A stretch of 64,000 nucleotides of DNA, from NCBI GenBank assembly GCA_027620655.1, contig JAQCDS010000001.1, positions 310,001 through 374,000 of the forward strand, given 5' to 3'. This document shows, in pieces, positions 43,700 to 46,384 of this stretch. The position numbers and the translations under genes were made by a program. The notes beneath the pieces are model-generated. The model was not told where the DNA came from. It was given only the letters and a program-made list of their open reading frames with translations, and ran no database searches. Positions within the stretch are counted from its first letter, which is position 1. Every line of letters starts with the position of its first letter. The stretch is from Bacteroidota bacterium (GTDB taxonomy: Bacteria; Bacteroidota; Bacteroidia; Flavobacteriales; Flavobacteriaceae).

Positions 43700-45328
<1,629 letters not shown>

Positions 45329-45333
45329 TTAAA

Positions 45334-45421
45334 CGCAAACAAATTTACAAATAACTATTTAAATTTTAGGAATAAAATCAAGTTGTTTGTAAACAAATGC
45401 GTTTTTTTTTATTTGTTTGCG
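45334..45421 (-). promoter_or_regulatory. nested inverted repeats and -7 box upstream of pyrG
   Basis: The -7 box TAAATTTG (complement of 45340-45347) lies 20 nt before the pyrG start. It overlaps an 11-bp arm, cgcaaacaaat (45334-45344), whose inverse copy is at 45411-45421. Inside lie another aaacaaat (45391-45398) that can pair with 45411-45418, and a ttgttt-gt-aaacaa palindrome (45383-45396). These are mutually exclusive pairings. An operator, or a structure in read-through mRNA from the upstream isomerase gene, is possible. Confidence 0.45.
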
Positions 45422-45451
45422 CTATGAAAACTTTCAAAAGGAATTAAAAAT

Positions 45452-46384
45452 TTATTTTATTCCCATAAGTTCTACATCAAAAATAAGATTTGCGTTTGGA
45501 GGAATAACCCCTCCAGCACCAAGGCTTCCATAGGCCAAAATACTTGGTATTACAAAACGTGCTTTTTCGCCTACATGAAGTAATGCAATACCTTCGTCCC
45601 AACCTGGAATAACTTGGCCTACACCCAGTGTAAATTCAATTGGATCGTTGCGTTTGTATGAGGAATCAAATACAGTTCCATCGGCCAATTGTCCTTTGTA
45701 ATGTACAGAAACAACATCATTTTTTTGAGCTTGTTTACCCTCTCCTTTTTGCAGAATTTGATAGCGAAGTCCACTTTCTGTTTTTTCAAATCCACTAGCT
45801 AATTTTTCGAGCTCTGCTTCAATGGCTGCTTTTTCAGCTTCAAGACGTTTTGCGCGTGAACCTTCAAAAACTCTAAATGACTCAATCGCATTAAATGCTT
45901 CTGCATCTGCTCCAACAGCCAAAATCTCTAAGGATTCTATCGTATCACCTTGAGCTATTGCATCTACAACTGATTGACCTTCAATGGTTTTACCAAAAAC
46001 AGTGTGTTTTCCGTCCAGCCAAGGTGTTGGCGTATGAGTTATAAAAAACTGACTACCATTTGTGCCAGGTCCTGCATTAGCCATTGATAAAATTCCTGGT
46101 TGATCGTGCTTTAATTCTGGGTGAAATTCATCATCAAATTGGTAGCCTGGATTTCCTGTTCCTGTTCCTAGTGGGCAACCGCCTTGAATCATAAAATCTG
46201 GAATAACACGATGGAATTTTAATCCGTCGTAATATGGTTGTCCTTGTTTTTTGATGTCATTCTCTAAATTTCCTTGAGCGAGTGCCACAAAGTTACCAAC
46301 TGTTCCTGGTGTTTTTTGGAATTCTAAATTAACTAAAATCTCTCCTTTTGAAGTTGTAAACTTGGCATATAAACCGTCTTGCAT
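45452..46384 (-). CDS. cytoplasmic cyclophilin-FKBP dual peptidyl-prolyl isomerase
   Basis: The 310-aa protein has no signal peptide. A cyclophilin domain at about 1-160 has [25 protein letters not shown] and WLDGKHTVFG. A short charged helix leads to an FKBP domain at about 200-310 with VSVHYKGQLADGTVFDSSY, PGWDEGIALLHVGEKA and ILAYGSLGAGGVIPPNA. All key active-site residues of both folds appear present. It is a cytoplasmic counterpart of the lipoprotein at 16423. Its own promoter lies upstream; pyrG follows downstream. Confidence 0.94.
   Translation of the reverse strand: MQDGLYAKFTTSKGEILVNLEFQKTPGTVGNFVALAQGNLENDIKKQGQPYYDGLKFHRVIPDFMIQGGCPLGTGTGNPGYQFDDEFHPELKHDQPGILSMANAGPGTNGSQFFITHTPTPWLDGKHTVFGKTIEGQSVVDAIAQGDTIESLEILAVGADAEAFNAIESFRVFEGSRAKRLEAEKAAIEAELEKLASGFEKTESGLRYQILQKGEGKQAQKNDVVSVHYKGQLADGTVFDSSYKRNDPIEFTLGVGQVIPGWDEGIALLHVGEKARFVIPSILAYGSLGAGGVIPPNANLIFDVELMGIK

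Follow-up and report, generated by a model that had tools for sequence, protein, structure and literature searches.

A start-to-AUG hairpin at pyrG as a candidate CTP-responsive start-site switch in Flavobacteriaceae and related Bacteroidota

In Escherichia coli, the start regions of pyrC and pyrD carry C and then G, and the computed folding of the MG1655 leaders depends on which base is taken as the first, falling from -8.1 to -3.0 kcal/mol over the CCG of pyrC and from -10.3 to -3.1 kcal/mol over the CCCG of pyrD. For these two genes in E. coli and Salmonella, the choice of transcription start is sensitive to nucleotides, with the hairpin form of the transcript arising at low GTP/CTP (PMC7818426, in excerpt), such that high CTP gives the hairpin form and translation is blocked (PMC7818426 and PMC4491880, both in excerpt). 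The pyrG gene of E. coli is seemingly start-site switched as well (excerpt of PMC7818426, citing Turnbough and Switzer 2008), and its TTTCCCGTC lies downstream of a -10-like TATACT. A further mechanism is described for pyrG of Bacillus subtilis and streptococci, where CTP-sensitive reiterative addition of G controls a terminator in the leader (PMC4448216, in excerpt). For Flavobacterium or Bacteroidota, a literature search, with most subscription journals outside it, found no study of CTP synthase or pyrG control.

The window analysed here, a stretch of 64,000 nucleotides from a member of the Flavobacteriaceae, carries pyrG on its minus strand (Table 1), and relatives of the gene are present in 57 of the 60 genomes searched, its own included. 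A gap of 132 bp with 76.5% A+T separates pyrG from the peptidyl-prolyl isomerase gene that lies 5' of it; judged from the translated sequence alone, the isomerase appears to be a fusion of a cyclophilin-type and an FKBP-type domain. The flavobacterial sigma-A -7 box, TAnnTTTG, occupies -12 to -5 (PMC9723704, in excerpt), and this span places the predicted +1 of pyrG at C45335, with a G on either side. On the minus strand, the region reads 5' to 3' as TTG-TAAATTTG-TTTG-CG-TTTAAAAGCGCACA-ATG, with TTTGCGTTT as the start region and a predicted leader of about 16 nt. No E. coli-type sigma-70 promoter was found between positions 45200 and 45600.

Table 1. Features in and around the pyrG upstream region, in positions of the window.
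Feature	Position	Strand	Remarks
pyrG, CTP synthase (539 aa)	43700..45319	minus	ATG at 45319-45317; from the ORF list
Predicted leader hairpin UGCGUU-UAAA-AGCGCA	45322..45337	minus	-5.6 kcal/mol; 3' arm stops 2 nt short of the AUG
Predicted start region G(-1) C(+1) G(+2)	45334..45336	minus	From spacing to the -7 box (PMC9723704, in excerpt)
Proximal arm CGCAAACAAAT	45334..45344	plus	Equals -7 box plus start region; kept in 9/10 same-genus relatives
pyrG promoter -7 box TAAATTTG	45347-45340	minus	TAnnTTTG consensus, TTG before box; from sequence and consensus (PMC9723704, in excerpt)
AAATTTAAATAGTTATT, 5' of the -7 box	45350-45366	minus	
Local palindrome TTGTTTGTAAACAA	45383..45396	plus	Present as TTGTTnnnnAACAA in 4/10 same-genus relatives
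Inner copy AAACAAAT	45391-45398		Exact 8-mer, in either orientation, in 3/10 same-genus relatives
Distal inverse copy ATTTGTTTGCG	45411..45421	plus	Exact in 0/10 same-genus relatives
Peptidyl-prolyl isomerase gene, 5' of pyrG	45452-46384	minus	

The predicted start-site hairpin is conserved and is tied to pyrG. It spans the leader from the predicted transcription start to 2 nt before the AUG, with UGCGUU pairing to AGCGCA across a loop of 4 nt, and is kept in nine of ten same-genus relatives. In the window's family (f1), 37 rows begin with the hairpin sequence, or 35 after removal of two refetched duplicates, the two collections of relatives behind this count possibly overlapping. A pattern combining the box and the hairpin, with at most 3 mismatches, occurs once each in 14 of 40 genomes (own included) and always at pyrG; its reversed control gave no match among the same 40 genomes. 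In 464 kb of this genome, pyrG alone reaches -4 kcal/mol among the 74 leaders of up to 30 nt that follow a TAnnTTTG box, and with a looser fold criterion and leaders of up to 60 nt, 4 of 106 pass, namely pyrG and three others. The leader pattern is single-copy, no second copy being found in this genome, and inspection by eye of the sequences before pyrD, two pyrC-like genes and carA revealed no start-to-AUG hairpin like that of pyrG. Comparison with Rfam yielded six matches in 45200-45600, with E values of up to 5 and all far below the gathering scores, and none above gathering at 20 further pyrG loci.

Within the window's clade, pair changes in the stem are one-sided, and compensatory changes were not found. 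Elsewhere in the window's own family, loops of 11-13 nt replace the one of 4 nt, and the 3' arm keeps its distance of 2-3 nt to the AUG. Maribacter- and Cellulophaga-type loci have an unchanged 5' arm that closes a longer loop (GCGUUA...UAACGC).

Several traits of this leader are those of pyrC and pyrD: alternative C and G bases lie within 2-3 nt (G-C-G at predicted -1, +1 and +2 in the window), the 5' arm begins among them, and computed folding drops when the start is moved 2-3 nt downstream. Unlike in pyrC and pyrD, the gene encodes CTP synthase, the leader is only about 16 nt long, and the promoter is of the Bacteroidota -7 box type; moreover, the 3' arm abuts the AUG, there is no Shine-Dalgarno sequence to cover, and the start sites are predicted ones. 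E. coli pyrG is the same gene, and its TTTCCCGTC is nearly identical to TTTCCCGTA, which several pyrG leaders of the class carry, whereas its promoter is of a different type and its 5' leader is longer. The Gram-positive pyrG genes likewise share the gene and, as proposed here for the window, CTP sensing at initiation. A Gram-positive type of attenuator is rejected, as the predicted start (TTTGCGTTT) has no G run and 45200-45600 contains no terminator-like site. Compared with these systems, the pyrG leader is best read, on its sequence, as a pyrC/pyrD-type switch applied to CTP synthase, and hence as a variant of a known mechanism.

Sequence or computation directly gives the hairpin, its position and its link to pyrG, and likewise the distance of C-then-G from the -7 box and the change in folding with the start position. 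In the window, the computed folding of the leader is -5.2 kcal/mol from G(-1), -0.5 kcal/mol from C(+1) and 0.0 kcal/mol from G(+2), and a computed start 2-3 nt later removes the hairpin. Since the transcript from C(+1) is nearly unfolded, the switch would have to lie between U(-2)/G(-1) and bases further down. Another 18 leaders were selected for their ability to fold; 13 of them pass from -4.9 kcal/mol or better at -1 to -2.2 kcal/mol or weaker at the first downstream G; three (L172, L177 and L181) keep -4.2, -3.5 and -3.3 kcal/mol at that G, and two (L121 and L128) are weak throughout.

Bacteroidetes are without Shine-Dalgarno sequences, and in F. johnsoniae structure near the start codon tunes translation and goes with lower translation (PMC6847099, in excerpt). 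On these grounds, a CTP-sensitive choice of start that yields either a closed or an open transcript is proposed for pyrG. A single sigma-A-type promoter would suffice, with a start region that permits alternative starts and reads G-C-G in the window and C-C-C-G or C-G in other leaders. RNA polymerase would begin either at or just before the C, or else at a G that lies 1-3 nt downstream. The transcript from the upstream start would carry the 5' arm and, with its 3' arm abutting the AUG in a phylum that has no Shine-Dalgarno sequences, would be poorly translated; the transcript from the downstream G would be deprived of the outer stem pairs and would stay open. The upstream start would use CTP as its first or second nucleotide, and the downstream start would not (GTP and UTP in the window), so that the closed form, and with it less CTP synthase, would be favoured when CTP is plentiful, and the open form when it is scarce. 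In the window, a start at G(-1) needs C as the second nucleotide and a start at G(+2) needs U, such that the balance between product and substrate of CTP synthase could be sensed directly. Where transcription starts, how the starts respond to CTP and what this does to translation are inferred here, and a CTP-responsive start-site switch controlling pyrG translation is the best reading of the locus, with a probability of roughly 60%. The switch reading predicts two or three 5' ends of the mRNA, in a ratio that follows CTP.

Across the class, the predicted C-then-G start is widespread and robust, with the hairpin confined to some lineages, the window's among them. The class was inferred from the best 80 relatives of a longer list, all Flavobacteriaceae or Bacteroidota, a sample that leans to close relatives. 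A first set of 118 loci yielded 116 leaders; additional orders and families (where 10 of the 64 added loci gave no start) and then 40 further genomes were read after it. The start-region count used the 158 of 187 pyrG loci with a strict TAnnTTTG box 9-60 nt from the ATG, and the 149 control leaders comprised 94 from this genome and 55 from 20 other genomes. In 26 of 47 families, versus 10 of 149 control leaders, predicted +1 is a C and a G comes after it at +2 or +3, and against the other-genome controls alone (6/55) the excess in families has p = 1.5e-6. In the window's family, C(+1) then G occurs in 18 of 45 distinct leaders, where distinct means collapsed by the first 10 leader bases and the totals include the duplicates L117 and L118 (the L009 and L004 loci). 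The commonest form of the start is TCCCGTA. A search of 119 genomes with TANNTTTGNNTCCCGTA gave 30 matches, 16 of them at pyrG; the other 14 look like background, because the reversed control is equally frequent, with 30 scattered matches.

The 40 further genomes were fetched after the criteria had been fixed. Three gave no start and 13 had no strict box, although four of these 13 (L241, L246, L250 and L272) still have CCCGT, and 24 were usable. C-then-G was found in 16 of the 24 usable leaders (p = 1.6e-10), in a set that falls short of a blind one: TCCCGTA at pyrG had been seen earlier in 8 of the 40 genomes (6 of the 24 usable), 5 of the 40 (4 of the 24) come from a previously used genus, and most genera belong to families already sampled. 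When already-seen genomes and used genera are removed, the recount gives 9 of 15 (p = 1.7e-6).

Many pyrG leaders with a C-then-G start lack the hairpin, and Polaribacter/Tenacibaculum-like leaders (CAAACCTAA) have neither. In the latter, CAAACCTAA stands right after the -7 box in a very short leader (L064, L084, L086, L093, L097, L116, L134, L137 and L160), an arrangement common to Polaribacter/Tenacibaculum/Lutibacter-type genomes and to another family (f5: L134 and L137). Flavobacterium leaders miss the C(+1)-G criterion, some having C-G one position earlier; most of them begin with CCA[AC]G and continue with 5-7 T and an unstructured A/C-rich stretch (L062, L072, L073, L078-L082, L085, L099, L102 and L105). 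The G followed by a T run near the predicted Flavobacterium start recalls the UTP-dependent slippage promoters of E. coli. In other classes of the phylum, 12 of 15 loci were readable, with CCCGT near the start in one (L302) and absent from 11. The L302 locus has TATCTTTG-TAGGA-CCCGT before pyrG, its start-like region being shifted by a base or two.

Hairpins with arms of unrelated sequence are found before pyrG in other families, as evidenced by GCGGUUU/AAACCGC (L122), ACAGUUUU/AAAACUGU (L171), ACUGAAU/AUUCAGU (L169), UCUGUUA/UAACAGA (L174), ACGGC/GCCGU (L177), CCUGAU/AUCAGG (L203) and CCGUAA/UUACGG (L167). Even two genera of one family can differ in this way, the L171 arms ending 0 nt before the AUG and the unrelated CCGAUU/AAUCGG of L266 ending 1 nt before it. 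The 5' arms of these hairpins begin at predicted -1 or +1, and among the 10 families whose stem is 5'-terminal, the 3' arm lies 0-4 nt before the AUG in all but two, L181 (9 nt) and L172 (24 nt). Loop length ranges from 3 to 19 nt across families with both ends anchored, which speaks for pairing in RNA and not for a DNA operator.

Start-to-AUG stems scoring at least 13 occur in 10 of 47 families versus none of the 149 controls (p = 2.8e-7), with L172 counted among the ten by virtue of a stem other than its 5'-terminal one. The window's own stem scores 12, below this threshold; lowering the threshold to 12 gives 12 of 47 versus 5 of 149 (p = 2.6e-5). When the 3' halves were swapped between families at threshold 13, 2000 trials averaged 3.5 and never exceeded 9, versus the 10 observed, and a tighter geometry gave 8 of 47 observed versus a swap mean of 2.0 and a maximum of 7 in 5000 trials. 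In the further genomes, the criterion of an AUG-adjacent hairpin, which had been fixed in advance, failed, with 1 of 24 (p = 0.14) and arm swaps reaching that count in 436 of 5000 trials. After the criterion was relaxed to any 5'-terminal hairpin, with AUG distance ignored, the count was 3 of 24 versus 2 of 149 (p = 0.02).

Other readings of the leader have to be set against the switch. A hairpin at the 5' terminus could protect the mRNA or fix a low rate of translation, and the leader might then be a constitutive stabiliser or damper that senses no nucleotide; the absence of the hairpin from many clades agrees with such a role, which would however leave unexplained the uncommon C-then-G start that is seen with or without the hairpin. 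This reading is unlikely, if the least so of the alternatives. Ranked after it, and also unlikely, is CTP-dependent slippage, whereby reiterative addition of C at a C-rich start would abort pyrG transcription at high CTP and the hairpin would be secondary. The wide distribution of TCCCGTA starts and their linkage to pyrG (16 of the 30 TANNTTTGNNTCCCGTA matches) are in keeping with slippage, as is the reiterative transcription known at Gram-positive pyrG (PMC4448216, in excerpt), but the start of the window, GCGUUU, has no C run, and the same holds for several hairpin families with CAG, CTG or CGG starts. A DNA-binding repressor comes third and is about as unlikely; it would sit on a palindrome covering the start of transcription, and operator symmetry would produce the RNA hairpin as a by-product. 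The arms do form palindromic DNA over the predicted start, and in the window's clade their sequence is conserved with no two-sided compensatory change; across families, however, arms and spacing vary freely while the ends stay at the predicted start and mostly near the AUG, and the lengthening of the loop in the window's family leaves the 3' arm in place. An operator would have no reason to track the AUG, and the AUG-anchored arm thus counts against a repressor.

A further alternative starts from the inverted repeats by which the locus was first noticed. The preliminary description had seen in them an operator array, or an on/off fold of read-through RNA, and its reading of the letters was accurate: the 11-bp proximal arm and its exact inverse, the inner copy and the palindrome are where it placed them (Table 1), the proximal arm overlaps the -7 box, and its four AACAAAT-type boxes are a fair count, there being 3 exact AACAAAT/ATTTGTT and 5 with one mismatch in 45334-45421. 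The read-through RNA folds with a z of -2.48 (2 of 200 shuffles fold as well), and at least 3 exact boxes arise in 1 of 2000 shuffles, for a motif picked after the sequence had been seen. In dinucleotide shuffles of the 132-bp intergenic stretch, however, the longest inverted repeat reaches 11 bp or more in 178 of 2000 (8.9%); in real DNA this length is rarer, at 5 of 417 overlapping 132-bp stretches of at least 70% A+T in the window. The arm CGCAAACAAAT has 4 copies genome-wide, 2 of them here, and its reversed control has 1. The proximal arm is conserved because it equals the -7 box and start region, and its supposed distal partner is not conserved. An operator array or long read-through fold is rejected as a conserved feature, given that the distal arm is exact in none of the relatives (0/10) and the palindrome in 4 of 10 same-genus relatives, and lack of conservation of the boxes was what the preliminary description had itself named as speaking against it. 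Competing repeats acting as an operator or read-through switch are therefore highly improbable, and the array itself is most likely incidental. The idea that pyrG has a cis-acting on/off fold survives, though for another fold: the conserved structure occupies 45337-45322 of the minus strand and lies between the predicted transcription start and the AUG.

Extended to the class, the start-site switch would mean that the CTP synthase gene senses its own product at the first nucleotides of transcription through a C-then-G choice of start, with independently evolved start-to-AUG hairpins adding translational repression in several lineages, and with no repressor, Shine-Dalgarno sequence or riboswitch involved; E. 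coli pyrG would have the CCCGT start in common with the class, either through convergence or through deep ancestry. This wider proposal is tentative, its chances falling somewhat short of even. If true, a large bacterial class would regulate the essential CTP step by choice of start site alone, on short leaders matching no Rfam family here, and the arrangement would show a pyrC-like switch working at start codons that have no Shine-Dalgarno sequence.

Two minor observations concern the surroundings of the leader. Longer pyrG leaders of some other families in which a hairpin lies further downstream or does not abut the AUG (L126, L165, L185, L192 and L210) may represent different devices. In related genera (L010, L012, L013, L036 and L043), the place held in the window by AAATTTAAATAGTTATT is taken by AATAACTATTTAAATTT, its exact reverse complement, and this pair is possibly an orientation-independent element, or a chance outcome of a near-palindromic core.
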